Source of the DNA: Batillaria attramentaria
Lineage: Eukaryota > Mollusca > Gastropoda > Batillariidae
Direction of reading: 5' to 3'
Assembly (NCBI GenBank): GCA_018292915.2
Contig: JACVVK020000015.1
Location: 3,157,001 to 3,221,000 of the forward strand
Length of the DNA: 64,000 nt
Part shown: piece by piece, positions 24,591-63,306 of the stretch
Layout of the letters: every line of letters begins with the position of its first letter
How positions within the stretch are numbered: position 1 is the stretch's first letter
The notes under the pieces: generated by a model
What the model saw: only the letters and a program-made list of their open reading frames with translations
Database searches by the model: none
What the model was told of the DNA's origin: nothing
Made by a program: the position numbers and the translations under genes

Positions 24591-27500
24591 TCAGTGTGGG
24601 TCGGTCTGCCGCTGCAGACGCTGCTGCTCCAGAAGACGCTCAAGAGGCGTCATCGACGGCGCATCTGCCCACATCAACTGAAACACAGAAAGAACAAGCA
24701 TTATTTTACAAATGCATCCAACGTAAATAGACAGAGACAGTTACCAAGCCCTCAAAATGCAATCTGTAACTACAAACACAAACACACACCAAAAAAAAAA
24801 AAAAAAAAAGAAGAAGGAAAATGAGAAACAAAAGAAGAGTTTCAGTGGTTTCCCCATCAGAAAACCCAAGTTTGCAGTAGTCTAGGAGGTTATAGTGTCT
24901 ATGGTAATTAAGTCTCCAATGATTTCTGGCCATAACTTTTATGGAGCCGCTTCAAATAACTATCAAAGAGAAATAGTAGATGCTTCACTTGAAAGTGAAA
25001 TAGGCGGCAGACGCATGTTTTGGCTCATATCTTAGCAGCAACAGCCCCAAAATGGCTCCTATTTTGCAGACATCTAAGTGGTATCATGTTCTTGTCACAA
25101 TTACAAGCCAAGGTCAGCCTGTGAACCCCAAAAAACCTGCAGGATGTATCTTTAATAGATAAAGTCACTGATACGTACCTGTGCATTACCAGGATGCTGA
25201 CCCCTGCCCTTGACCTCTTCGTGACCAGCACCTTGACCCATCCAGTTCTCAGCCTGCTGGCCACGGTAGCGCATGGAAGCATCGTACGCGGCATTCGCTG
25301 GCTGGTCAAAGCCGACAATCGGTGAGTTGCGCATACTGCCCTCTTGGGAAGAGAACGGTGATGAGGTGAGACCTGGGATTAAAAGTGGTAATGGTTTTAT
25401 ATGATATATATATATCAAATGATCAGTGCACATTTTTTTTTTTTTTAAAGTGCATATATGCTGTTCATATGCTCATATCCACAGACACACAGACAGGCAC
25501 TCACACAGATACACACAAAAACCCAAAAAAGAAAAAACCAACAACCAGCCTTATAAAGTACAAGTCATGCATGCCAAATACACCTGCAGTTTTCACTGTA
25601 TTTACCCATGAATTTTAAAACTGCTTACTCTCCATTATAAAGTCTTTTTGGTTTTTTTTTAATACATGCATCAGTGAAATTATGGATCACATTTTTTTTA
25701 AAAATGGTCAGTCAGTGGTAAAAGGACTATACAGACTGTGAACAGCCTCTGCTTCATTCAAAATACAGGCAATGAAATGAACTTCGCTAAGCGCTTACTT
25801 TTAGATTCAGACCCAGAATTGAGCGGCATGGACCAAGGGGAAGAACTGGCGAAGAGAGAGTACTCGCCACTTGGCTGTGCCACTGGCATCTCCACACGTC
25901 GTATGACTGGTTCCCCCTCTCTGAAACATAAAGATGACAAACACTTCATTTACCAAGCTTGAATTTAAGGTAGAACAGCACTCAAGTCTAAATTAGCAAA
26001 ATTTAGAAAGTCTAAGCAAGAGCAGATTACGACAACCCAAAACAAGCATTACCGTTTTTCTGGTGCAAATCCCTCTGTCTTGTCTGGTTTGGGAGTACCC
26101 TGAAAAAAGAAAAGAAAAGAAGTACAATGCAGTGATGATAACAATAATTGTTAACTCATTGCTGACCTTGTCCGCGCATAGTGGAATTCCCCTGTGACCC
26201 AGGCACTGTGTGCGAGCACAACCCTTGCCAACCAGGTGATTTTTGCAATTTTCTGATTTTTTTTTTAAAAGACGTCTTTCTCATATGTTTCCTATTCCTG
26301 TTTGGTATGGTTTGAAAGATAATAATAAGCACTTTCGTGGAAAAATATTGTTGATTGGAAAAACTGGGCACACTGGCGACAGTGAGAGCGGAGATAACGT
26401 GGGTTGTGGGTGCTTGGTAACAGCGTCCTCACGCGTCAGCGCCCGGGGTCTAGGTGTGTGGTTGGCAACGGTATGCAAGTGCTCTGTACAAACACTCGGT
26501 GCATGGTCATGAAAAAGTTAAAGCTGGATAATACAAGATAACCAAGACAGTGCATAGTTTCAACTGTATGCAGCTAGATCTGGTTTTAGAATTTGCGCTC
26601 TCTCTCACACACACACATATTTAGCACTTACTTACTTACTTAGGCCCCTGGCTCCACGTGGAGCATAGGCCATCGACAACCCTTCGCCATCGCACTCTGT
26701 TCTGGGCTATTCTTGCCACTATAGTCCAGTTGGTCCCCTGCTTATATAACTCTGCCTCAGTGTCCCGCCTCCAGCTGTTGCGAGGCCGGCCTCTCTTCCT
26801 TTTCCCCTGTGGGTTCCATGTCAGGGCTTGGCGTGTGGTGCTGGATGCTGGCTTCCTGAGGGTGTGTCCAATCCAGCCCCACTTCCTCCGCAGGATCTGC
26901 TTGGTCGCTGGTTCCTGCCCTGCTCGCTCCCACAGCTCTTCGTTCCGGATCTTCTCTGGCCATCGGATGTTGAAGATGCGCCTCAGACAGGTGTTGAGAA
27001 ATGTCTGGATCTTCTGCTGCATCGTCTTCGTTGTCCTCCATGTTTCGCATCCGTAAAGCAGAACTGACTTCACGTTGGAGTTGAAGATGCGAAGTTTGGT
27101 TCTTAACCTGACAACTTTGGATGCCCAGATGTTCTTCAGCATGACCATTGCTGCTCTTGCCTTGCCGATTCTGGCTGTGACGTCTCGGTCTGTGCCTCCC
27201 TGTCCATCAACCACACTCCCCAGGTAGACAAAGGACTCTACCTCCCTGATGGGCTCTCCACCGACTGTGACTGGTGTGTTGGCAGTGGTGTTGATCTTCA
27301 TCAGCTCGGTTTTCCTCCTGTTGATCTTGAGCCCTGTTCCGGCTGATGTGGCTTCCAGGCATGTAGTCTTGTCCTGCATCTGGCTGTGGCTGTGAGACAG
27401 GAGCGCCAGGTCGTCCGCAAAGTCGAGGTCATCCAGCTGCGTCCAGAGTGTCCACTGTATCCCGTTTTTCCTGCCTGTTGTGGTGGTCTTCATGATCCAG

Positions 27501-30500
27501 TCGATGACCAGGAGGAAGAGGAATGGGGACAACAGACATCCCTGGCGGACTCCGGTCTTCACCTCGAAGCTTTCTGACAACTGGCCAGCATGGGCAATCT
27601 TGCAGCTCATGTCTTTGTAGGTGCACTGGATCAGGGAGATGATCTTCCCGGGAACTCCATAGTGCCTTAGCAGCTTCCACAGCGCCTCTCTGTCTACACT
27701 GTCGAAGGCCTTCTCATAGTCTATGAAGTTGATGTAGAGGGGGGAGTTCCACTCCAGTGACTGTTCAACAATGATGCGTAGGCTGGCGATCTGGTCAGCG
27801 CAGGACCTGTTCCTGCGAAAGCCCGCCTGCTGGTCTCGGAGCATAGGGTCGACTGCCTCCCTCATCCTCTCCAGTAGAATTCTGTTGAGAACCTTGCCTG
27901 GCACTGACAGGAGCATGATCCCTCGGTAGTTGCTGCAGTCCCTGAGGTCCCCTTTCTTTGGCAGCTTGATGACGATCCCTTCTTTCCACTGGGCTGGCAC
28001 CTCTTCCTTCTCCCAGATCTTGCTGAATAGGCTGTGCAGCATGTTGACAGCTGTCTCTGTGTCTGCTTTGATGGCTTCTGCTGGTATCTCGTCCGGCCCT
28101 GCAGCTTTCCCATTTCTCAGTGTCATGATGGCTTTCCTGATCTCCGCCTTAGAGGGCTTGTCGCAGTTGATGGGTAGTTCTGTCTCAGCTGGCGGGATGT
28201 CTGGTGGTGTTTCAGGGATGGGGCGATTTAACAGTTCCCTGAAGTGTTCTGCCCATCGCTTCAGCTGTTCCTCAGTTGTTGTCAGTGGGTGCCCGTTCTT
28301 GTCCTTCACTGGTTTGTCTGTCTGCTGAAATTTGCCCGCGAGCTTCTTGGTCACCTGGTACAGGTCTTTTAGGTTCCCTTGTCCGGCTGCTTCCTCTGCT
28401 TGATTGGCCAGGTTGTCGATGTAGTCCCTCTTGTCCTTTCTGGTGCTCTTCTTCACTTCTCTGTCAGCTGCTGTGTATTCTTCCTGTGCCTTTGCCTTAG
28501 CTCTTCTTGTTCGGCTCGTGTTCAGTGCAGTTTTCTTCTTTTTCCTAACTTCCAGCTTCTGGATGGTATCAGCAGAGATCCATTCCTTGTGTTGGGTCTT
28601 TCTCTTGCCAAGGACCTCTTCGCATGTGTCGTGCCAGAGTTTCTTGCTGTGTTCCCACTGTGTCTCGATATCCATTCCACTGTCTTCTATCAGGTCTTGC
28701 AGTGGCTGGAACCTGTTGGAAAGGCTGATCCGGAATGCTGCTTGTGTCTCTGTGTTCCTGAGTAGGCCAACGTTGTAACTGGTCCGTGTGTTGTTGGCGT
28801 TGGTGTGTCTCTTAAGCCGAAGTCTCAATGTTGTTGCAAGAAGGTGGTGGTCTGATGATACATCGGCACCCCTCATCACGCGCACATCTCGCCACGATCT
28901 CCTGAACTTCCTGCTGATGCAGATGTGATCAATCTGGTTCTCCGTGACATGGTCCGGCGATCTCCATGTGGCCTTGTGGATGCGCTTGTGTGGGAAGATG
29001 CTGCCTCCTATCACTAGCTGGTTCAGGGCACAAAAGTCTGCAAAGCGCTCGCCATTTTCGTTCATCTGTCCCAGTCCGTGTGTTCCCATGGTGTTCTCAT
29101 AGCCTGTGTTGTCTGATCCAATCTTGGCGTTGAAGTCTCCCATCAGTATGGTCATGTCCTTGGCTCCTCCTCTATCTATCACTGTCTGCAGTTGTTGGTA
29201 GAAATCATCTTTTTTCTCCTCTTCCGCATCATTGGTGGGAGCGTAGCACTGGATGATGTTTAGCTTGATGTCTTTCTTCTTGGTGATGAATTTGGCTGTG
29301 ATGATGCGGGAGTTGACAGGTTCCCAGCCGATGAGTGCCCGCTGTGCCTCCGGTGCCAGCATCAGGGCCACGCCCTCAGTGTGGGGGGCTCCATCCTCTG
29401 TGTGTCCCGAGTACAGCAATTGCTCTCCCGATGAAAATCTCAGCTGTCCTGTTTGTAGCCACCTTGTCTCACTCAGTCCCAGTACTCCTATCCTGTAGTT
29501 CTTCATCTCTCTCGCTACTTGTATGGTCCTTCCTACTTCATACATTGTCCTGATGTTCCATGTGGCTACTCTCGTCGTTGTCCTGGGTGTTAGAAGGGGG
29601 GTCGGCCTTGCAGCTTCCTTTCAGCTTTCACTGCAATGCGTCATAGGTCTCCGGGATGGAAAACCTTCCTCGCCCAGGTGAATGTTTTGGTTTGTTGCTG
29701 TCGATGCTTCTGTAACTTTTATGTTTTTTACAGGTAGGGCTGTTAACCCATTTAGCCTCTTGGAGAGGTGGTCCACATTCGTCTGACCTCTACCCTTCGA
29801 CCTGTCCAGCTTGGGTGACCCTGCCAGGAGCACGTGCTCCCGCTGGCGAAGCTCTCTGGGTCATTGAGGTACACAAGCCACTACCCCACGACAAGGGTTG
29901 GACCATGTAGGGATATTTAGCACTACACAGACTATATCCACACAGCAGCACACACCCATACACCTTGACCCACTCTGACCCTGAACATGACCAACGTACC
30001 TCCGCATGACCTTGGAAGCTGGTGCTGATCCGTGTGTCAGGAGGTGAGGGCTTGGGCGGCTGTAGGAAAGATCAACAATAAAAACAAAAAATCACGCCAG
30101 AGCCATGATAATGAAGACGTGAGTAATCACAACTCCAAAAGTCCCATGTAAAATTATCTGTGTTGTTCGATACTCCAATCAGAATACAATGTTAGTACAA
30201 AACAAAATCTTGAATACAAAATGTGCTTCGGCTGTTCATCAGCAAGTTCCCTTAACAACTGCGGTTGAAGAAAGAGTGTGAATGCAAAACTAAACATCAA
30301 ATCTCTGTGCAAGTTTGACAAACAGATAAAGTTTCCAATTCACATACCTGTATGGTAAGAGGAGATAGAGCCTGGTAACCCCTCCCTGACTCCGCCCCCT
30401 GACCTTTCACCTCCTCCTTGAACAGCTGATGGGCCAGGCCTGGAAACCCCGCCCCCGACGTCAGCGACTGGTGGCCTGGCATGGGGATGGGAGGTGGGGG

Positions 30501-32657
30501 ATGGTGAGGGGCAGCTGGGCCCTGACCGCTCCCCATCTCATGTGCTCGCTGACCCCCCATGGCCATCGGGCCCTGCATGTGGGGGTGGGGGTGGGGCTGG
30601 GGGTGAGAGGTGGGTCCCATGTTCTGCATCATGTCCCCGGGACCCTGTGGGAAGGCCATGCCGGCTGCGGGGTGGTACGGGTGTGGCATGCCGGAGGGGA
30701 ACTGTCCCATATTGGGCCCACTGACTGGGTTGTGGCCCACGCTGGGCCCATGTCCCATCATCGGAGCTCTCTGCAGGGGGCCACGAGGCATCCCATGCTG
30801 CTGCTGCAGCTGCTGCTCCTGCAGATGAAGTTGTTGCTGCTGTCGCTGATGTGGTTGGGGTTGCTGCTGCTGCTGGAGCTGATGTGGTGGTTGCTGTTGT
30901 GGTTGTGGAGGGGAGAGATGAGCGCCACCCATACCAAGCTGCTGCTGCTGCTGCTGTTGATGCTGTGAAATCTGACTAGCCAGCCGCAGTGCAGACAGCA
31001 TCTCCTGGTTCAAAGCATGGCTAGCACCGGCAGGGGGGCGCACACCTTGAGGGCTGACGGGACTTTGGGTAACACTGGCTGCTGCTGACCCAGACTGAGG
31101 CTGCTGGAAATGAGGCAACCTGGGAACGTCGGCAGGACCTCGAGGACCCATTCCCGGGACGGGCATTCTGTACCTGTCATTCCCGACTCCCTGAAACGGC
31201 ATCTGGAAGGGCGGCAAAGGTCCGGTGTTCTCTTGAGCCTGACCAGCTTGAGATGGTGGAGGTGCCTCACTTCTGAGACCTTGACCTGGCATCCCAGGCA
31301 TTCCTTGACCCTGACCTTGGTAGGAGTGAATCTGTGGATGCAGCTGGCTCTGGCCTTGAGGGATGTGACTCTGACCTGGAGGCAAGTGGCTCTGGCTGGG
31401 CACTGTGTGACCCTGACCTGATCCAACTTGACCTTGGCCTGCATGACCTTGACCTTGAAAGGCAAGGCCACCCTGAAAGACGTGCTGAGGGCCGGGACCT
31501 CTCTCTGCAGTGGGAGCTGGAGCAGGGGAGGCTGAAATGGGGAAACGCGCTCCCAATGGGTGGGGACCACGCAAGTGAGCTTGGGTGCCAACGCCAAAGT
31601 GTGGTTGCTGTTGCTGCTGTTGTTGCTGAAGCTGCTGGTGCTGGGCGGGGAATGGTTGCTGTTTCTGTGGAAGGGTTTGCTTCATCAACTGCGGCTGCTG
31701 CATCTGCTGGGCCAACGGCGGTGACAACTGTTGCGGCTGTTGTTGCTGTACATGGACCACCTGCTGCTGCGCTTGTGCCTGGGTAGGGGGTAGAGGAGAA
31801 GCACCCCTGGCCTGGACCGGCATGGGGGACGCTCCACATGGAGACGGTGCGAACCCGGGCAGAGGTGACGAGCCCCCACGTTGTGGGGACTGACCACGGC
31901 GCGCGAGGGAAGATGGGGAGGGCTGTGGGGAAGGCTGCAGGCGGGAGGAACTGCCTGTACCCCCGCCACTGTATGCAGTGACTCCTCCATGTTTCATGAA
32001 CTGCGGCTCGCTGGTGACGGTTCCCAGCAGGTACTTCGGGGACGACTGGCCGGACAGTGTACCCGATTCCTTGTCACTCCCTTTCCCCTGCACACACAGG
32101 CAGATGAGAAAATGCAAACAACATGACAACACCCAATGGTACCTAGACTTTCTAGATTACTCACTTCCGTGATTCCACAACCACGGGAAGTGAATAAATA
32201 AATGCTAAGTGTAAATAAATGTAAATGATCTTTTTTGGGGGACAAATTTCAGAAGAGAGCTTAAGAAAGGGCAAAAATCAAACTTAGCTTAAGAAAGGGC
32301 AAAAATCAAACTTAACTTAAATACAAATGACTAATGTACAAACCAACCACAACAAAAAATAAATAAATAAAACATAATACACTGAGAGAAAGAAAAATAT
32401 AGTCACTCTCACCAGTTCTGTGTGATCATTCTGTCCATGTTTCATGATAGCCTGAAATGTAAAAAAAAGTTGACAGAGGCTTGAAATTAAATGTTGAAAC
32501 AAAATGAGAAAACAGAACACCACACAGCAGAGAGTGTAGAATGTTTGATCATTTACACAAACAATTGTTATTCAACATGCAACAAGTCTGAAAACCCCTC
32601 AGAAGATTTAGGTTTCAGTCCAAACCATTAGGGTCAGTGTGTAAAGGTTTGTGTATG

Positions 32658-40362: not shown

Positions 40363-42143
40363 TTTGTACGGCCATTCTAGTCCCATACACAGACCATACT
40401 TAAGCATCTGAGATTCAAAATTTTACAGCGATATGGGCAACCTAGATTAGTGCTAAACTCAAGTCCAGCTTGTCGTCGCCATTTTCCTTGAGAATTGACG
40501 TTAGGGGAAATCACTCCGTGGATCAGAAGTGTTACGTCCCCTGAGGGGCACAGTAAAGCACAGTTAGAAACACATACTTTTTAGAATACACTTATAATAC
40601 AGTGCACCGAATTGTGCAGTCGGTAATAATACAATACTCATTTACAACTTGTTTACAGGGAAACATTTTTTACAAGGAATTATGCATATTTAGTCCATGG
40701 ATTCATGAATACTGCACATGTTTGTCAGTGCGTTTGTCAGTTAGTCCCGGCGACTGCACTGACTCAGTGACTGGAGTCAGTCAGTGGTAAGGCCGGGCAT
40801 GACAGCCGGAGATTGTAGATGGCATAGCGTTTGCAGGCACTAGACGTACATACTGACTATGACACAGCCCCTCGTTCACATCAGTGAAATGCATGATATC
40901 AGTTACAAAGTCAGTCAGTCGGCAGTACTGACAGACTGACGAGGCTCTCGGACGGCAAAAGCCGCCGTTTTAAGCCAGGCGGCAGTGACACATTTTCACA
41001 GGGAACGTCTAATACGTATGGGGCACATGGGACGTAGCAACAGCCTGTGTGACATGTGTGTGGCACTACTGATGTCACACGTATGCTGATATACATCCCC
41101 CACAATGGGTGAGCTCTTTAGCCGGTTTACCGTAGTTCATTGGTGCGCAGTACAAGTTCAAGTTCATCGCGATAACCCCGATAAACCAGGGTCAGGGCTA
41201 TAATTATGAGTCAGTTGCGCCCAAAACAGAGAAGCCGCACCGGCAGATCTCGACTGACTCCACTGCACTGAGAAACTCGACCGGCACAGTTGTAGTCCGG
41301 TTTGCACTGCGCTTTGAACACCAAGGACGTACATTTAGGGTCCATGTGAACACCGACGTCAGGGTGACTCACAGTGTAACTGCAGGTACTGTGGCTACTG
41401 ATTTTGATAAATTGACTGACTCAGCTTGACTGACACTGACATCAAAGACCTTGGAATCAGATCTTTGCTGACATTTCGCTAACGTGAATGTGGTCTAAGC
41501 CCGGCTTTGCCAACATTTGCATATTACCATTTCAGTTCCACAGCGGAGAGTGTCCGGCAAGGGAAGCCGGGTCACAGTAGTCAGTCTACTCGGCATCACT
41601 GCCGGAGTTGAGGTGCTCGTAAGGTATAGTGTACAGCCTCTTCATGACCGGCTGCCGCATGCACCGTCAGGTCCGGTCGTCAGCCGCCAGTTAGTTCAGT
41701 TCGTTTCCGTCATTTGCTCACCTAAAATTTAGATCCCGTACTTGACACGGCGGCCGTGACTGAACTTACTGACGACACCTGTTTTCAGTGGGTGTTGTTA
41801 GCCGACCGTGCCTGTTCAGCAGCCATGTATTATTCGTCTAGTGTAGACCTACCTTTTGTCAGGACCATCCAGGCAGCCGTGCTACTGGTGAGTTGGCCGG
41901 CGTTTCCAACTCAAAGAGAAAGCACAGAGAGTTCAGGGATGGCCGGATCAGTGCGTCTTCACTGATGCATCAGTGCTTCGTGTATTTTCGACATGCGTCA
42001 GCCGCGGCGTTCACTGGAAGTTAGGGCCACATCATCTTACAACAGGATAGTCACAGTGAAACTTAGGTCAATCACAATAATTATTATATTGTTTCAGGAC
42101 ACAGCCGGAGTGACCGACCGTGTAGTACTCAGGCGCCGAAAAC
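40363..42143. other. divergent intergenic region SMG7 / NAT-like
   Basis: This 1.8-kb stretch separates the SMG7 start (minus) from the NAT-like start (plus) and should contain both promoters. No core promoter motif stands out. It is unusually rich in short cagtcagt/gactgact words (for example 40,720-40,790, 40,905-40,945, 41,410-41,445). A plausible splice acceptor, tattgtttcag, ends at 42,097, so the NAT-like gene may have an untranslated first exon in this region. Confidence 0.45.
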
Positions 42144-43058
42144 ATGTTCACGAAGGAGGAAGCGACCTGTCTGCTAGAGGAGCGATGGGGGTTACAGAAC
42201 GTCAGGCAGAGACTCCAGCAAGACAGGCACGGGCTTCTGGACGACATCGTGGTGACCGTGCAAGCCAAGGTCCCCTTTCAGAACCTCACGCTCATGGCCA
42301 CACCGCCCGCCCAGCGCAGGAGGCCAATGGAGGAGGACATCAAGCGAGACTGCCTCTCTGGATATGGAGGTCTGTGCTACACTCTGAATGTCTTCACGTT
42401 TAACCTTTTGAAAGCTCTGTGTTACGATGCAGCTCTGTGTCACGCCACCTGCACCTCCACAGTGGGCTTCCCTGACAACCACGTGTTTGTCCTCGTGCAG
42501 AACCTGCGTAACCGGGGGGACAGATATCTGGTCGAGGCTGGGGTAGGCTTCCCAACCTACAGAGCTGTTCCTCTGGATTTCACAGACGAGTCCCCTACAT
42601 ACGTGGACTCGTTCCTCGAATACAAATACATCAAGCACGAGAATCTTCTTCTGCGCATGCACAGACGAGGCGACACTGCGCCACGCCCGCACCCACCACG
42701 ACCAGACATTGACTTCTACATCGGAGAGTGGCGTCGGTTTTATTTCTCCGACATGAAGCCTCACCTGAGCGTTTCAGAGTTTGACGAATGTTTCGACACC
42801 GTCTACACAAACCCTAAAGCCTCGAATTTCCACAACGCTCCAAGAGCGCTGATGTTTCCCGATAAGCTCGCCTGCATTTTGTCCAGCAACCGGATGACGT
42901 TGGAGAAAGATGACGGAGAGGTCGTCCGGCAGGTGTTCCCTGATGACGAAGACGATGACGTCATCGTGCGTCGGTACCAGGACCATTTTCCTCAGATCAG
43001 CGGGGACATTGTCCTTAGAGCCTACCAGGAATGGAGGCGGGTAAAGTCAGGATGCTAA
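42144..43058 (+). CDS. arylamine N-acetyltransferase-like protein
   Basis: A 304-residue intronless coding region of the arylamine N-acetyltransferase (NAT) family, cytosolic enzymes that move acetyl from acetyl-CoA to aromatic amines via a Cys-His-Asp triad. The catalytic Cys lies in SGYGGLCYTLN (Cys78), matching the family RGGxC motif. The His is in DNHVFVLV (His113). The third position, normally Asp in a V-D-x-G-x-G loop, is Glu131 in YLVEAGVG. Length is close to the 290 residues of typical NATs. The C-terminal part carries an acidic patch (PDDEDDD). The start is favoured because it directly follows a plausible acceptor and gives the full fold. The last roughly 20 codons have been duplicated downstream in a tandem array. 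The family call is good; substrate and activity are unknown. Confidence 0.85.
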   Translation: MFTKEEATCLLEERWGLQNVRQRLQQDRHGLLDDIVVTVQAKVPFQNLTLMATPPAQRRRPMEEDIKRDCLSGYGGLCYTLNVFTFNLLKALCYDAALCHATCTSTVGFPDNHVFVLVQNLRNRGDRYLVEAGVGFPTYRAVPLDFTDESPTYVDSFLEYKYIKHENLLLRMHRRGDTAPRPHPPRPDIDFYIGEWRRFYFSDMKPHLSVSEFDECFDTVYTNPKASNFHNAPRALMFPDKLACILSSNRMTLEKDDGEVVRQVFPDDEDDDVIVRRYQDHFPQISGDIVLRAYQEWRRVKSGC

Positions 43059-44867: not shown

Positions 44868-47397
44868 CTACTGGGTCAAGGTGACCCAGATCAGCTGTGC
44901 AGTGGCACGTGACATGGCGTGCAGCCTGCCCATCCCAATGTCTCCCGCCCTCAACGGCCCTCTCTGAAGCCACACGACTACTTTCCGTTCCATCCCGCTG
45001 ACAGTACGCGCGTTTGCGGCCAGGACCTGGTCGAGCCCCGCCATCAGCGCCACATCTCGCGAGAACCCGGCGGTGTCACCGCGTGCCAACACCTTGACCG
45101 GGACTCCAGCCTGGCGCAGACCTCGCACCACGCCGCTAGCGCGCCTCACTACGTTGCCGGCGGCGTCTCTTTCCTCCTCGACAATGGTGTCGTCATCCCA
45201 GGCAGTCAGAAGAAACACGTCGCGGTACGTCAGAGGCGCTGGAATGGTTCTGATGGCCCCGGCAGCAGTATTATGAGATGTAATGTGACCTGCAAGTACA
45301 ATGTAACCGTTTAAAAAAAAGTACCATAGAAAACAAACAATTAGATAAGCTTACGCAGGCAATAGTACAGTTTAGGTTATCTAACAGTGCAGTAATGTAT
45401 AGAAGCGATAGAAACTGCTGACGCAGTAATAAAATATATACCGAGCAACAAAAGAAAGGTGATTTCTTTGGTTTACTGATAAAACTTGCGAGTAGTCTCA
45501 GAGGCTCGGAGACTCTTCGGGCACTGAGGGAGCCGGGATAGCCGAATGGTAAAGCCGCGTTGGACTTTCGATGTTCAGATCGTGAGTTCGAATCCCGGCT
45601 GAGGCCAAGTGTCTGTGCTGGCCTTTCTCTCGTTGCCTGGTCTTTGGTATCACCCCATACGTGGCAGCAAAGGACGGTAAACTCCCAAACACCCACACCC
45701 ACAAACTTCGGGTGCTGCTGACGCAAGGACACAAATTGACCGTGGGGTCATGATTGGTGTTTTTTTTAGGTACTTTATTTGGCAAGTGTGCTAGTCTGTA
45801 GTGATTTTTGTTGTCATAAAAAAGCGTGATTTTCGTGATTTTTGTGTTAGGTAGGTCGAGGTGCTTGCCAGGCGGTCACAAAAAGGGGCAAGCTGCCAGT
45901 GAAGCCGGGACTTTTTGCACAGAGGTGGGACACAAGTGAGGCAAGCGGATTTGTGCGAACTGCCTCTCTGGCCTAAGCAGAAAGGAGACGTACATTACTC
46001 CATTGAAGCCTTTGGGGGGGGGGGGGGGGGCTTGCCTATGATGCCTGAGGCTAATAGGGAATATATAGGCATTTTGAGGCCCTGTATATTCAGTTGTGTC
46101 CTTCAGTTCGGCCTGCTGACGATTCTCTCACCCGTCAAACTGACGCGCAGTTCTTGCAAGACGCGGGCCACCTCCGCTCCGCACAGCTCGCAGTCTTCGG
46201 GCTTGCCCCCACTGTGCCCGGGGCCTGCGTGGTACAGAACCCTGAGGGACGGGCCGTCAGCTGGCAGAGGGGCTGAGCCAGGCGTGTAGGCACGGACGCG
46301 TTTACTTATGTGAATGATGGGCGACTCCTGCACGTGTCTGGTGACGACTGGAGGCGTCCTGAGTGGCTCCGTCATGGGAACCTCTGTCAGGGAGGGCGGT
46401 TTGTCTCCATGGAACAAACTGGCGGCCCAAACGCGGAGATCATGTACGCGCTTGTGTAGCTCGGTGCAGACTTCGATGAAGTCCCTGTAAGCGAGAACAT
46501 TGTATGAGTTTATATTTGAATCTGTTAAAACAAACCAACAAACAAACAAACAAACAAACAAAAAACACCCCAAACAAACAACAACAACAAAAAATAATAT
46601 AACAATTAAACAACAGCAACAACGTGCCAACAACACCAACAACAAACCACTTGTGTGTCCACAACAAAAACAAAACAAAAAACAACAGCAACTGGACTCG
46701 TGTTAGGATTTCCATGTACGACCGTGCACTAGGTACGAGCTCAACAGCGTCCAACACTATAATGTATACATGCGAGTGTATACGAAATTCTTTCTCTTTC
46801 TCTCTTTCAAACAAAGGTCAGTGTTAGTGTTTACTTTGTTCACAGCACGCATGGGAACTTACCGATGCACCTCATCCGCCACCAGGCACAGCGGGCCCTG
46901 ACTGGCGGCCGCCACGAGGCAGTTGACAGCGGCTTTCATCTGACCCTGCTCCTCGAAGTCGAACAGGTGAAGATGCACGCGCTGTCCGGCGGAGTCGCCA
47001 GTACTCTGCTGCACCTGTTGAGAGGATGGAACAGGCTTGTGTGCATCGTACTGTGTGAATGCAAAGTACTAAACAGAGAAACGTACCATGTTGCGTATCA
47101 TGTTAAGACTCAGAAATAGCAGCTAGGTTTGCATAGGACCCTCTCTCCCAACCCTTATCCAACGCTAAGCTATATGCTTATTATGCATGTGTACACAATG
47201 ATGAGCGTATGTACCCACACTCCACCCCTAAGAAGGGCGGGAAAAGAAAAAAAAAAAAAAAAGAAAAGAAGAGAAAACGAGGGAGGAAAAAGAGAAAGAA
47301 AAGAAAAAAGAAATATTTTAAGGGCGGGAATTAAACAAAACAATGGGATTAGTGAGAATGGGGGAAAGAAAAACAAAGGGCGAGGTGGTGGGGGTGC

Positions 47398-47493
<96 letters not shown>

Positions 47494-47581
47494 CATTAAC
47501 AACGAGAACAAGAACAACAAAAGAAAACAACAACAACAAATGAAAGAAAGAAAGAATGCCCCCCTCCCTCCCCGAAAACAA

Positions 47582-47659
<78 letters not shown>

Positions 47660-48878
47660 CAACAACAACAAACACAAAACCAACCAACCAAACAAAAAAC
47701 AAAAACAAAACAACAACAACAAAAAACCAAAGCAAAATTAATGAACAACAAAAAAAAAAACAACAACACCAAAAACCCCCCACCCGAACCTGATGCGCGA
47801 TAAGGTGTGACGCCGCCATGCTGTTCTTCCACGTACTGAGAACATGCACGTGCCATCCTTGCTGCCACCAGTCGTGAGCTCTTACGACCAGCACCAAGGT
47901 TTTTCCAGTACCCGGGGGTCCGCACAGCCAGACCAGCGGCAAGTGCATGTTGAGGACGTCCAACTGCTCGGGGTGAAGGACGACGCGGGTGAACCGGCGT
48001 GACGTCTCCGCCACCCCCTCCCCTTCCCCACGGAGGAAGTGGAGAGGAGGTTTGGTGACGCAGAATACTTCCACGGTGGTCGCCGGTCCGCAGAACCTGT
48101 ACAATACACGGAACTTAGAGACTCAATACGTATGACACACATCGTGTGGAAAACTTTTCATCTAATGCGCTGACTCTGTGCATCAGAACCAATCACTTGG
48201 ATCACGACGTAGCATCTGAAATCATTGTAGTGACTTTGGTTGGCGTGTATGTTGTTCTGCACGTGCACCGCGTACTGAGCAGACAACGTTATTTGGTTGC
48301 AGACTGAGGACCAGCTAGACGGCGTTGACTGGTAGCTATTTTTAGAAGATTTGTATAGTCCCAGTCTGTTCAAGAACGGACGGTAGGCTCAAAGGAAGTC
48401 GTATTTCTCTACTATTAGAAAATCACGAAAACGGTCGCGATGGGCAAATGATACACCGTTAGAGCTTCGAAAGCGGCAGGTTTTCATCTCAGTCTCGGTG
48501 GCGTTGGGAACATACGGGCTTTAAGCGTCGTTTGTCTGGCAGCCAAAACTCACAAAATTCGTCCTCCATTTATTCAGCGAAATCTCAGCTGCAGCTTGTA
48601 GGCGTACGAGGAACAGGTGTCTCAGTCCTCTTGGCTGCGGTCATGTTAGAACATCAGATCGGCGTAGTCTACACTAAGGCTCTGATCAAGCGTTCTGACA
48701 TGGGCTGCGCTTTGCTATCATCAGACATTATTCATTCCCAAAGTTTTTTGTTAAGAAAAAGTGTTGTTGGAATAAGATTATAAGGGATCTACGTTTGTTA
48801 GTTCCACACAAGGCAAAACACACCAGTTTGTTAATGTTCCGAGCTGCAGAAAACACAGCAGCAACAACAAGCCAAACT

Positions 48879-48965
<87 letters not shown>

Positions 48966-50542
48966 CCAAAAACCCCATCCAACATACAAACAACAAAAAC
49001 AAAACCAAGACCCCCCCGCAAAAAAAAACCCCAAAAAAACCCAACCCAACCCAAACCAAACCAAGCCAAAACAAAACAAAACAAAACAACAAAAACTACA
49101 AACAACAAAAACTACAAAACAACAACAACAAAACAACAATAAATAAACAAACAAACACACAAAAACAGCAAAACAAAGAAAAGCTTTGATCAGTCCTACC
49201 TTGCGACAAGATCTTCATAGTCCGCATCTGCCATAGAAATAAGAGGTCCCGCCACCCGCCTGGTCCACCACACAGACAACCTCTCAATGACGTCACTACT
49301 GACGTCCCAAGGCGTGGTGCTGTCTGAAAGGTCATCATGACACAGGCACAGGTCAACAGGGTCAGCTGGCGCCTGAAGGTCAAGGCACTGGCACAGCTCC
49401 TGATAGAGAGAGAAAAGATGTATACTCTGTTTCAAAAGAAACGCAGAAAGCTCTGGCCTGAGCACCGAAACTTGAAATACACTGCATACAACAACAAAAT
49501 CTAGGATGATTCTAGTAGAGTATCCGTCCATGTACTACATCGCCCCCCCCCCCCTTCCCCCCTTTAGCATTATCAGTGAATGAGATGCATAGTACAAAAC
49601 AGGCCTCAATCTTATTCTTTACAAAATCTGACATAGCACGCTCTCCGGGAATCGGAATTACTTAGATGGTGGTGGATCTAAATCCCGATATATAAATTAT
49701 GTAGATCTCAAATTTCTGCTGAGCTGTTCCCAGTGCTTCCTTCTTTGAAATCACTATTCTGGTGGACAGAGAAAACTAAACACCAGTGCAGTTCACCCAC
49801 CCACACCCATCCACACACCCACTCCCACACCAACCTGTCTAACTTGATGGTGGGCGTCAAGTACACGCTGTAGCCGACACCGGGTGATGTTGGGCAGCAT
49901 AAGGGTTTTTCGCACCCTGGGTGGATTCTGCATGTCAGAAACCAGGTGAGTCAGAACTTTTTCAGCTTTGTCCAGCTGTTTCAACGCCGTTAGCACTCTT
50001 TTGGCCACCGAGTCATCCTGTTGCTGCTCCGTCAGACCTGAACAAGAAAAGTTGTCGCCAACAGCTTTGATTTCGGCAACGACCAGACCGTAGTGCTTGT
50101 GCATGATGAGAAGATCAAAGTCTCCTCTGTGTTTGTTCTCCTTCTTCAGGTCGATGGGTCTGGGCAACATACTGGCGGCTGCAGCGTAACACGGCTTGTT
50201 GAGATAGTCACCGAACAGCAGCTGCGATACGACCACCATAGGTTCGTCCTGTGTCTCTGCCAGCTTCTGAACACAGTGTAGGATGCGTTGTTGGGTTTGG
50301 TCTTCACGGGCCGTGCTCTTGTGTAAGGCTGGCGGGGAGTTAGCGGGCGGTTTCTCCAAAGGAGTCTGCGTCATGTCGACGTTTAGTCCGGCAAACTGCA
50401 CTGTCTGGTAGGGCACCCTGTTCATGTACACAGGGGGAACAAAGTAGGCACGCTTGTGGAGTCTGGGAAACCAATGGCGCACACACAGTCGCCATAGCAA
50501 CATGTCAGGATGTGGCGGTGACCCTTGACCTCCCTGAGCCAT
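44868..50542 (-). CDS. PD-(D/E)XK-like nuclease fused to SF1 helicase
   Basis: Six exons (50542-49835, 49399-49200, 48096-47790, 47014-46863, 46484-46132, 45289-44868) join in frame to 713 residues plus stop, all with GT-AG introns. The N-terminal part has a PD-(D/E)XK-type signature, GDFDLLIM (Asp141, Asp143) followed by VVAEIKA (Glu157, Lys159), as in NERD-like nucleases. The C-terminal half is a superfamily 1 helicase: Walker A GPPGTGKT (362-369) preceded by a Q-motif-like HPEQLDVL, Walker B LCLVADEVH (Asp452-Glu453), motif V-like GMERKVVVWL and motif VI-like LHAMSRATAQLIWV (Arg701). The likely action is ATP-driven movement on nucleic acid coupled to cleavage. I do not recognise a named vertebrate ortholog. 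The layout recalls bacterial nuclease-helicase defence proteins and, loosely, Schlafen proteins. An acceptor-like TTTACAG just upstream of the ATG suggests a 5' UTR exon. Catalytic assignment is by motif only. Confidence 0.8.
45528..45704 (+). mobile_element. tRNA-derived SINE
   Basis: The head has A box (GATAGCCGAATGGTAAAGC) and B box (GAGTTCGAATCCCGGC), then a body ending aaactcccaaacaccc. It closely matches the SINE at 4,380-4,555. Imperfect flanking repeats (cttcgggcactg and cttcgggtgctg) may be its target-site duplication. It lies in the intron between the last two nuclease-helicase exons. The tRNA-like part is not a functional tRNA gene. Confidence 0.78.
47395..47492. repeat. (GC)n(GT)n microsatellite
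   Basis: About nine GC units (47395-47412) followed by about 40 GT units with one CA interruption, in a nuclease-helicase intron. It is alternating purine-pyrimidine throughout. Confidence 0.95.
47583..47658. repeat. (CA)n microsatellite opposed to the (GT)n at 47,413
   Basis: About 38 CA units, 90 bp from the (GT)n tract and complementary to it on the same strand, in the same intron and about 130 bp from the exon at 47,790. Confidence 0.95.
48881..48964. repeat. (CA)n microsatellite
   Basis: About 42 CA units in a nuclease-helicase intron, followed by an A/C-rich low-complexity stretch (aaacc, aaaac, caacaa words) to about 49,180. The whole 48,870-49,180 region has no coding content. Confidence 0.95.
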
Positions 50543-54521: not shown

Positions 54522-54709
54522 CGTCGCGCCAGAGAAGAATTTATTTTTAGTGTTTGTATTAAAAAATGACGAAACTGTGTGCCATTTACTGACCTTGTCA
54601 AACGGCGTTACATCCTTGACTGAAGATATCGCATGTTAGTACTAAACCTCATGACCATGTATTTAATGTAGATATCTACCCATTTGCCTGTTTCAGAAAC
54701 GAGAAAAAG

Positions 54710-56748
54710 ATGGCGACTGCCGCAGTATCAGCAGAACCCAGTGACATGGAGTGTCCAGTCTGTAACGAGCATTTCACTGAACCCAAAATCCTGCCCTGTG
54801 CTCACATCCTCTGTAAACACTGCCTGGTATCTTGGCTACGGTCTGAACCAAGCGCACAGTGTCCCATTTGTCGCTGTAAGATAGCTGATGGCGAGAAACC
54901 AGCCTCTAAAACGTCTGAAGACATCGCCAACGAGCTGCCCACCGACCTGGCCATGGCGGGTTTAGTCCACAGCTCACAGACACTCAGCAAGAGCCACGCG
55001 TGTTGTGTACACCCAGGTGTCGCTGCTTCATCCATCTGTCTGAACTGTAACGACATGCTGTGTCAGCCATGTGCCGCAGGCCACAAAAAGTTATCGATGT
55101 CACGTGATCACAAGGTCGAGGACCTGACGTCACTGACCCCAGAACGTCTGGCCGCCAGCATGCCTGCTACATGCTCCACACACCCAGACCAGACTTGCGA
55201 GTTCTTCTGTCGTACTCACAACACTGTCGTCTGCCAGTCTTGCGTCCTGCTAAAGCACCGAGCATGTCCAGAAGTAACGAAAGCGGAAGAGAAGGCACAG
55301 GAAGCACGTGCGGTACTTACTAAGTTGTCGGCCACGCTGAGAGCGAGAGAGTCGGCATTGGAGCAAGCCATCAGTCAGCTGGACCAAGAGTTGATACAGA
55401 CGGACAAAACAACACAGGAAAATCTGCAAGAGATAAACGATGCTTTCACCCGTCTGGAAAAGACCATGAAGCAGCACCGACAGCGTCTGACAGACCTCCA
55501 GCAGACCGAAAACTCGGACGCCAAGGGAGTCATCAACAAAAAGAAGGCGGTGTTCTTGGAGCGGCGTGGGAAGCTGACGTCACACCGATGTCTGGTTGAC
55601 CGTGTTGGAGAGACAGTTTCCTGTTCAGATCTGTTTGACATGACTACAACCCTTCAGGAGACAGTCAACGTCTTGGATACAGGAATCATCCTACCAGATG
55701 ATGTCCAGGCCTCTGGTTTAGCCACAGTGAAAATAAGCCACGAGGTGCTGTCTCACATAGAACGAAAATTTGCAGATTTACTTGAGAAGGTAAATGTCGT
55801 TTATGATGTTCCTGCTTCGAGCTTGGTAAGTTTTATGTGTGTAGACTGTAGATAGTGCACACTAAACTGAAAACAAACATAAGCTGGTTTATCACTTCCG
55901 CTGACTATGTATTTATTTAGGCAGAAAAAGAATGTTCTATACAGCAGAAAGCATACATTTATTAAAACAAACCGCAAAAACCCTGAGGTACATGTATAAA
56001 GAACTCTGTCTGTCTCAGTGTCTGTCTGTCTCTCTGTTTCGCTCTTTCTCTCTGTCTGTCTGATTCTCTCACTCTGTGATATTTCACTTGATATGGCTTT
56101 CCTCACCCCGCTTTCAAAAACCAACTATAAAAAAACAAAGAAATCGTTGGGATATACTTCAGTGTGGTTGCTACTTGTAATCTCAGTTATGACGCGATGC
56201 ACCCAAAATTGTGGTGTAGATTTTTGAACCTCGAAACGTATGCATAGACAATAAGATCCTGAAGATCCCCGTTTATTTGTTTAGCCAAGGCCGGTTTTTC
56301 GCTTCCACGCGAACCATGGTGTAAACATCAAGCTGAGTAACAACCAGCAGACGGCGGAGAGTGTGCAGAGGGTGCGTAGTGGTTGTGACGGGATTGTTGT
56401 GTCGTGTGATACCATGGAGACCAACTATCTGTATGAGGTACTGGAAATACTTACTTCTGAGAAATGCGCCCACACTGTCTGTTTTTAAGAGCAATCTTAA
56501 AGCGTTCCTCTTTTGTAAAGCTTTCCAGTAATTTCCCGTGTCAGCAACTAGTCAGTTTCACCAGTGTATGTCTGTCCACTGTTTGTAAAATGTGCGTGAG
56601 TGTCGGTAAGTGATAGGCGCATTGAGTTTATACCAAAGAAATGCGCCCTACAAATGCCATTTATTATTATTATTATTTTGTTTTTTTTCCCATTCTTTCG
56701 TTGACAGAGCCAAGACGCAACTAGCAGAACTAAATATAACTTGTGTTG

Positions 56749-61216: not shown

Positions 61217-61562
61217 CTGTGAGCGGATCCAATTGTCACATTCTTTCTTTAGTACGTTTATCGTGCATTTTATTCCGGGAAAATCGGGTTGTGCGTCGCC
61301 GACATGCACGGCTACTAGTACCCACCGACATATGTTGAATTACTGATGACAGTGTAAAATTGTGAAAGTGTATCAGTAATGCCACTATCAGCGTGTCTAT
61401 TCAATACAGCTGTAATTGATGCTTGAAATTGTCAGTATGCAAATATAGAGAACATGTTACCTTTTCCCCTCCGATCTGGATGATGACAAATTGCATCACC
61501 GTCACTCATGGTCAGTTTTCGCACTGACAGTACTTCTTGGCCTTTTACAGAACTGACACAAG

Positions 61563-63306
61563 ATGGCGACTGCCGCAGTATCAGCTGAACCCAGTGACAT
61601 GGAGTGTCCAGTCTGTAACGAGCATTTCACTGAACCCAAAATCCTGCCCTGTGCTCACATCCTGTGTAAACACTGCCTGGTCTCTTGGCTACAGACTGAA
61701 CCAAACGCACAGTGTCCCATTTGTCGCTGTAAGATAGCAGATGGCAAGACACGAGCCTCTAAAACACCTGAAGACATCGCCAACGCGCTTCCCACCGACC
61801 TGGCCATGGCGGCTTTAGTCGACAGCGCACAGACACTCAGCAAGGACCACGTGTGTTGTGTACACCCAGGTGTCGCTGCTACATCCATCTGTCTGAACTG
61901 TAACGACATGCTGTGTCAGCCATGCGCCGCAGGCCACAAAAAGTTATCGATGTCACGTGGTCACAAGGTCGAGGACCTGACGTCACTAACTCCAGAACGT
62001 TTGGCCGCCAGCAGGCCTGCTACATGCTCCACTCACCCAGACCAGACTTGCGAGTTCTTCTGTCGTACTCACAACACTATCGTCTGCCAGTCTTGCGTCC
62101 TGCTAAAGCACCGCGCATGTCCAGAAGTAACGGAAGCGGAAGAGAAAGCAAAGGGAGCACGTGCGGTACTCACTAAGTTGTCGGCCACGTTGAGAGCGAG
62201 AGAGACCGCACTGGAGCGAGCCATCAGTCAGCTGGACCAAGAGCTGATACAGACGGACAAAACAACACAGGAAAACCTGAAGGTGAGAAACGATGCTTTC
62301 ACCCGTCTGGAAAAGACAATGAAGCAGAATCGACAACGTCTGAGAGACCTCCAGCAGACCGAAAACTCGGACGCCAAGGAAGTCATCAACAAAAAGAAGG
62401 CGGTGTTCTTGGAGCGGCGTGGGAAGCTGACGTCACACCGACGTATGGTTGACCGTGTTGGAGAGACAGTTTCCTGTTCAGATCTGTTTGACATGACTAC
62501 AACCCTTCAGGAGACAGTCAATGTCTTGGATACAGGAATCGTCCTGCCAGACGATGTCCAGACCTCTGGTTTAGCCACAATGACAATAAGCCACGAGATG
62601 CTGTCTCACATAGAACGAAAATTTGCAGATTTACTTGAGAAAGTAAATGTCGCTCATGATGTTCCTGCTTCGAGCTCGGTAAGTCTTATGAAGTTATGTG
62701 TGTAGACTGTAGATAGTGCAAAAACTGAAAACAACCATAAGCTGGTTTATCACTTCCGCTGACTATGTATTTATTTAGACAGAAAAGGAATGTTCTATAC
62801 AGCATTAAGCATACATTCATAAAAAAACTGAGGTACATGTGTAAAGATTTCTGTCTGTCTCAATGTCTGTCTGTCTGTCTGTCTCTCTGTTTCGCTCTTT
62901 CTCTCTGTCTCTGTCTGTCTGACTCTCTCACTCTGTGATATTTCACTTGGAATGACTTTCCTCACTCCGCTGTCAAAAACCAACTTTAAAAAACCCAAAG
63001 AAATCGTTTGGATATACTGTATATACTTCAGTGTGGTTGCTACTCGTAATCTCAGTTATGACGCGATGCACCCAAAATTGTGTAGATTTTTTTAAAACCT
63101 CGAAACGTATGCATGGCCAATAAGATCCTGACGATCCCTGTTTATTTGTTTAGCCAAGGCCGGGTTTTCGCTTCCACGCGAACCATGGTGTAAACATCAA
63201 GCTGAGTAACAACCAGCAGACGGCGGAGAGAGTGCAGAGGGCGATGAGTCGTGATGACGGGATTGTTGTGTCGTGTGATCCCATGGAGACCAACTATCTG
63301 TATGAG
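61563..63306 (+). CDS. RING/B-box/coiled-coil NHR protein (copy B), partial at right edge
   Basis: Tandem paralog of the gene at 54,710. Visible exons are 61563-62678 (372 codons) and 63154-63306 (51 codons), the same lengths and phase as copy A. In the first exon I count 38 differing residues of 372, about 90% identity. All eight RING zinc ligands and the B-box Cys/His residues are kept. The second exon encodes the first NHR strands (FRFHANHGVNIKLSNN). Intron 1 is also clearly alike between copies, so the duplication is recent and covered genomic DNA. In copy A the next exon starts 392 bp later; here no such exon appears in the remaining 694 bp, where the intron contains a repeat insertion. 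The rest probably lies beyond the window, but a truncated gene cannot be excluded. The 5' exon sequence before the ATG differs from copy A. Confidence 0.85.

Follow-up and report, generated by a model that had tools for sequence, protein, structure and literature searches.

A multi-copy caenogastropod gene family predicted to join a NERD-type nuclease to a superfamily 1 helicase

The 64,000-nucleotide stretch of the Batillaria attramentaria genome analyzed here (contig JACVVK020000015.1, positions 3,157,001 to 3,221,000; hereafter the window) carries on its minus strand a six-exon gene for a 713-residue protein in which a nuclease domain of the NERD type precedes a superfamily 1 (SF1) helicase. 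Both domains keep their motifs intact, and the gene belongs to a family that has expanded in caenogastropod snails and in which we predict a shuffling of accessory domains. From these observations we infer catalysis, substrate and a role in defence. The explanation we consider probable, with moderate confidence, is that the family consists of ATP-driven nucleases, with the SF1 part as helicase or translocase, that serve in nucleic-acid surveillance.

Reading the open reading frames (ORFs) of both strands together with the splice sites gave five introns, all GT-AG, and a spliced frame of 2142 bases that encodes 713 residues and a single terminal stop (Table 1), just as a first-pass annotation of this DNA, made from the letters alone, had proposed for its six exons. 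Protein searches yielded 95 family proteins (P0001 to P0095, clusters at 90% identity that include some isoforms, such as P0065 to P0067 from one gene); each search was confined to about 8,000 word-sharing candidates, which leaves room for missed relatives and does not show absence in other taxa. P0003, from another source, aligns to the product over 98% of the length with 51% identity (E = 1.1e-214). Because of this alignment, and because family members conserve the motif residues, the gene and its motifs are far beyond chance. P0003 has 715 residues and is encoded on a sequence of 2,506 bases, which is short for a gene with such introns, so it is probably derived from complementary DNA. The nearest protein is P0001, a B. 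attramentaria gene prediction that is 94% identical to the product across 433 family-alignment columns; in exon 1 the identity is 94.7% across 132 columns, and a 376-column stretch with gaps shows 86%. Since P0001 lacks most of the region from the nuclease strand to Walker A, it seems to be an inferior model either of this gene or of a very close one. Searching the window with the protein by tblastn returned its own exons and pieces at E ≥ 4.4, and no second copy of the gene.

The nuclease domain of the window protein has Asp143, then Glu157-x-Lys159, and Gln189 in the next helix (conservation counts, here and below, refer to family-alignment rows having a residue at that position). Exon 1 modelled alone with AlphaFold2 had a predicted local distance difference test (pLDDT) score of 88.3 and a predicted template modeling (pTM) score of 0.81. 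Among the 50 VIA rows listed for this model, 40 are PD-(D/E)XK proteins by our own classification, all with Z below 8, and Foldseek returned nothing for it at E ≤ 0.001. In this model the N-terminus has a restriction-endonuclease-like fold, in keeping with the earlier reading of Asp-x-Asp and Glu-x-Lys as PD-(D/E)XK-like. Of 35 relatives, 15 match the Pfam NERD profile (PF08378) at E ≤ 0.1, and P0011 and P0092 score above its cut-off; the window protein shares the D-ExK-Q set with NERD, but the profile does not match it at E ≤ 1.

The C-terminal part contains two RecA-like lobes with SF1 motifs I, II, IV, V and VI, and 61 of the 65 full-span rows retain the helicase residues. The first-pass claim that all main SF1 motifs are present stands for these five, but motif III proper was not identified in the product; a conserved Trp475 (80 of 81 rows) sits in that region. 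Arg701 is a candidate arginine finger, and a His-His-Cys-Cys insert may bind metal. For the whole model, the VIA list has UvrD (Z 24.3) and SLFN11 (Z 23.4) tied within one Z unit, and AddAB is another structural neighbor besides UvrD. With the window protein as a single query, neither Pfam nor the PDB gave anything significant outside the P-loop region.

The family proteins come from Littorina (44), Batillaria (16), Pomacea (15), Babylonia (8) and Nucella (8), 91 of the 95 being labelled by genus; all five genera are Caenogastropoda, and every named homologue comes from them. A protein search with a 17-row profile recovered 25 proteins, of which 22 belong to the family; the other three, P0096 to P0098 (E 0.095 to 0.9), were taken as chance P-loop proteins and dropped. 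We built a tree from the 87 rows that span 60% or more of the 713 columns, which dropped nine of 96 rows, including four of the 15 from Pomacea. A branch with support 89 sets the 11 remaining Pomacea rows apart from the rest, and several clades consist of Littorina rows. The window gene groups with 11 Batillaria and two other rows in a set of 14 (support 98). Genus labels require 19 changes on this tree, against 42.1 when shuffled. One contig of 74,745,493 bases carries 16 of the 44 Littorina proteins and another of 55,500,463 bases carries nine, in line with local duplication. The tree of this multi-copy family shows strong lineage-specific expansion; the first-pass annotation had called the gene possibly lineage-expanded. 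A separate clade of 899- to 1,099-residue proteins (P0073 and P0076 to P0080; three Littorina, two Batillaria and one Babylonia rows) may be a less expanded branch; those of its members that were read have long charged inserts ahead of motif VI. Beyond snails, tblastn with P0039 against plasmids and P0003 against phages found nothing at E ≤ 1, none of the 600 stretches that a pattern scan picked out in viral contigs was a relative, and no bacterial homologue was recovered in a search that did not extend to whole bacterial genomes. NCBIfam and PHROGs names on 35 relatives were scattered P-loop or helicase labels, and matches in a viral fold library were general helicases, which were set aside.

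Several relatives carry accessory modules, as read from gene predictions in which neighboring genes may be fused, although the Ig-plus-hydrophobic arrangement described next recurs in three Pomacea genes. In P0065 and P0072 from Pomacea, immunoglobulin (Ig) domains above the Pfam cut-off are followed by a hydrophobic stretch (mean hydropathy > 3) and the nuclease domain, whose Glu is replaced, and the chains stop short of the helicase; P0066 and P0067, by name isoforms of the P0065 gene, have the same stretch. P0086, also from Pomacea, has an Ig V-set domain below the cut-off (21.4 against 26) and a hydrophobic stretch before nuclease and helicase, with E-x-K and motif VI altered. The three Pomacea genes with this layout (P0065, P0072 and P0086) are predicted to encode Ig-type transmembrane proteins with the nuclease, or in P0086 nuclease and helicase, after the hydrophobic stretch; the loci of the Ig-transmembrane fusions are LOC112574795, LOC112574720 and LOC112574909. 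KH domains sit on some Pomacea relatives; KH_1 is just above the cut-off in P0039 (21.7 against 21.5) and occurs in three of 35 relatives at E ≤ 0.1. P0087 (Pomacea, 1790 residues) combines two helicase units and one nuclease with a C-terminal ZU5 domain above the cut-off, and P0007 has a zinc knuckle below it (16.8 against 20.8). P0074 from Batillaria contains a foreign-looking, partly repeated stretch mid-protein, which may be an inserted mobile element or an error of gene prediction.

The first-pass annotation had mentioned Schlafens, which pair a different nuclease with an SF1 helicase, and had proposed a Foldseek check. The best Foldseek match of the model is SLFN11 (E = 2.1e-15), and in predicted shape the protein is similar to the rear portion of human antiviral Schlafens. 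SLFN11 and SLFN5 are laid out as Slfn core (residues 1-353 in SLFN11), linker (354-576 and 337-552, respectively) and helicase (PMC9482658, PMC8789055), and one of these two papers calls the linker of unknown function. The match to SLFN11 starts at residue 381-384, past the Slfn core; the window protein has a NERD-type domain at its N-terminus, and contains neither SWAVDL nor SWA. Because Slfn core and SWAVDL are missing, the snail protein is not a Schlafen; the position of the Schlafen linker is occupied by a seemingly active nuclease. A 60-row profile placed SLFN5 at E = 3.5e-5 overall (its two stretches taken singly, 0.84 and 0.37) and the unrelated ArsA ATPase at 3.4e-5; another gave 1.3e-5 and 1.6e-5. 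In the whole-length profile alignment, the GLER and SR motifs are in register with human SLFN5. PF09848 (SLFN-type helicase) matches 11 of 35 relatives (best E = 4.5e-5) and not the window protein, and PDB searches with a second-lobe profile (16 rows) and a nuclease profile (14 rows) returned three chance chains each at E ≤ 10 and no Schlafen. The sequence evidence for a Schlafen link is marginal: SLFN5 and ArsA score alike with the whole-length profile and single-domain profiles find no Schlafen, and the link therefore rests on fold and domain order. On this basis we propose that the Schlafen linker and the NERD domain share an origin. We tentatively suggest, as a possibility we would not yet call probable, that the SWAVDL linker is a decayed PD-(D/E)XK nuclease, that snail proteins keep a working NERD nuclease with a Schlafen-type helicase, and that Pomacea has put this module inside Ig-type transmembrane receptors, which would be a new receptor layout. 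In the openly licensed literature we found no paper on the Schlafen linker as a restriction endonuclease fold, on NERD domains in molluscs or on a nuclease-related domain with a helicase in invertebrates, and a search for NERD in gastropods gave only an unrelated paper; the accessible text of PMC12839542 draws no link between the Schlafen linker and NERD.

If these proteins survey nucleic acid, the compact SF1 motor would engage viral or transposon nucleic acid that is single-stranded or damaged, perhaps aided in recognition by the Cys/His insert in its second lobe. ATP binding and hydrolysis would license or position the metal-dependent NERD nuclease, which lies N-terminal to a short linker and would cleave the strand, with DNA a likelier substrate than RNA. 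As copies multiply and accessory modules are exchanged, the range of what is sensed would broaden. Such a role is favored by bacterial defence, where a NERD domain is discussed as a DNA-targeting effector (PMC12839542) and where PADLOC models for NERD-helicase proteins weakly match some of the snail relatives, and by the expansion, the conserved active sites and the module exchange. The first-pass interpretation is partly supported.

The same features could belong to a Schlafen-like regulator whose target is RNA, either tRNA or viral RNA, and whose ATPase serves for gating and not for unwinding. The SLFN11 fold match, the register with SLFN5 and the KH domains of Pomacea relatives would fit it, as would reports that SLFN14 has no ATPase or helicase activity (PMC12499436) and that ATPase activity was not seen in SLFN11 and SLFN5 (PMC9482658, PMC8789055). 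However, the snail protein lacks the Slfn core that cuts tRNA, the NERD domains of bacterial defence proteins are discussed as cutters of DNA (PMC12839542) and nearly all full-span rows retain the helicase residues, and we regard this regulator as unlikely.

We give somewhat less credence to a housekeeping nuclease-helicase of DNA repair or recombination, AddAB- or Dna2-like, that multiplied in snails: AddAB and UvrD are structural neighbors, and the clade of longer proteins could be its conserved branch, but the named homologues recovered among the candidates scored all come from five caenogastropod genera, the expansion is strongly lineage-specific and the fused modules vary. An origin in mobile elements, or dispersal by them, with the gene kept for the element and not the host, is very improbable. 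The family is multiplied, and an ORF for a reverse transcriptase of the long interspersed nuclear element (LINE) type lies about 15 kb off in the window; yet the gene has several exons and conserved active sites, and the fused KH, ZU5 and Ig domains are host-type parts. Within the Pfam lists, of which that for the 35 relatives covered the first 25 of its 46 families, one mobile-element name occurs, IstB, the helper ATPase of IS21 (4 of 35 relatives), and two NCBIfam ATPase/transposase names were taken as P-loop matches.

Other frames in the window are given at the end of Table 1. The two tripartite-motif (TRIM)-type frames, near the nuclease-helicase gene, stand in tandem about 6 kb apart and are very alike by eye. 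Rfam and tRNA scans of the window found nothing.

Table 1. Parts of the nuclease-helicase gene and other frames in the window
Feature	Position in window	Strand	Residues	Content or conservation
Exon 1	50542-49835	minus	1-236	N-terminal region and NERD-type PD-(D/E)XK nuclease domain
Exon 2	49399-49200	minus	237-302	stretch linking nuclease to helicase
Exon 3	48096-47790	minus	303-405	Q-motif-like Gln347 and Walker A
Exon 4	47014-46863	minus	406-455	Walker B
Exon 5	46484-46132	minus	456-573	motif IV and His-His-Cys-Cys insert
Exon 6	45289-44868, including stop	minus	574-713	second RecA lobe, motifs V and VI
GDFD, predicted catalytic Asp D143	50114..50125	minus	140-143	D143 in 93/94 rows
E-x-K (EIK)	50066..50074	minus	157-159	E157 in 86/94 rows, K159 in 91/93
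Q189, Gln past E-x-K strand	49976..49978	minus	189	93/94 rows
Motif I/Walker A, GPPGTGKT	47898..47921	minus	362-369	K368 in 87/87 rows
Walker B, DE	within exon 4	minus	452-453	D in 85/86 rows, E in 82/86
Motif IV, LRTPP	exon 5	minus	497-501	R498 in 77/79 rows
Putative metal site H541, H546, C554, C557	46181..46231	minus	541-557	77/79, 74/77, 77/77 and 77/78 rows
Motif V, GMERK	44982..44996	minus	672-676	consensus GLERK; E674 in 72/75 rows, R675 in 73/75
Motif VI, SRATAQL	44892..44912	minus	700-706	consensus SRCTxQL; R701 in 68/72 rows
Two TRIM-type frames	54620-55855 and 61557-62705	plus		RING plus B-box
310-residue open frame	42126-43058	plus		arylamine N-acetyltransferase match (PF00797, E = 1e-10)
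994-residue non-long-terminal-repeat (non-LTR) retrotransposon frame	26636-29620	minus		endonuclease, reverse transcriptase, DUF6451
619-residue Gln/Pro-rich open frame	30297-32156	minus		no Pfam match at E ≤ 0.001

With this family, animals would gain a large uncharacterised group of nuclease-helicases with a layout described elsewhere in bacterial defence. The family also offers a testable origin for the middle domain of human Schlafens, which lacks an explanation. If snails do have a catalytically intact counterpart, it can serve to study how Schlafen autoinhibition and DNA binding work.

Judging by the names of PADLOC models (Nhi, C3a187 'NERD+UvrD' and RTasNERD-Hel), bacterial chains that combine NERD with a helicase, as the snail protein does, have been described, but profile matches to these defence proteins are only partial and weak (best, Nhi at E = 4.2e-7); the Nhi model matches 21 of 35 relatives at E ≤ 0.1, again over partial stretches. 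UvrD/Rep helicases have chains of about 620-660 residues, compared with about 360 for the snail motor, which adds the His-His-Cys-Cys insert and the attached nuclease. Vertebrate group III Schlafens (SLFN5, SLFN11 and SLFN14) differ in having both Slfn core and SWAVDL and in their relative domain orientation (large root mean square deviation), whereas the matching domain of the snail protein has a complete D-ExK set.
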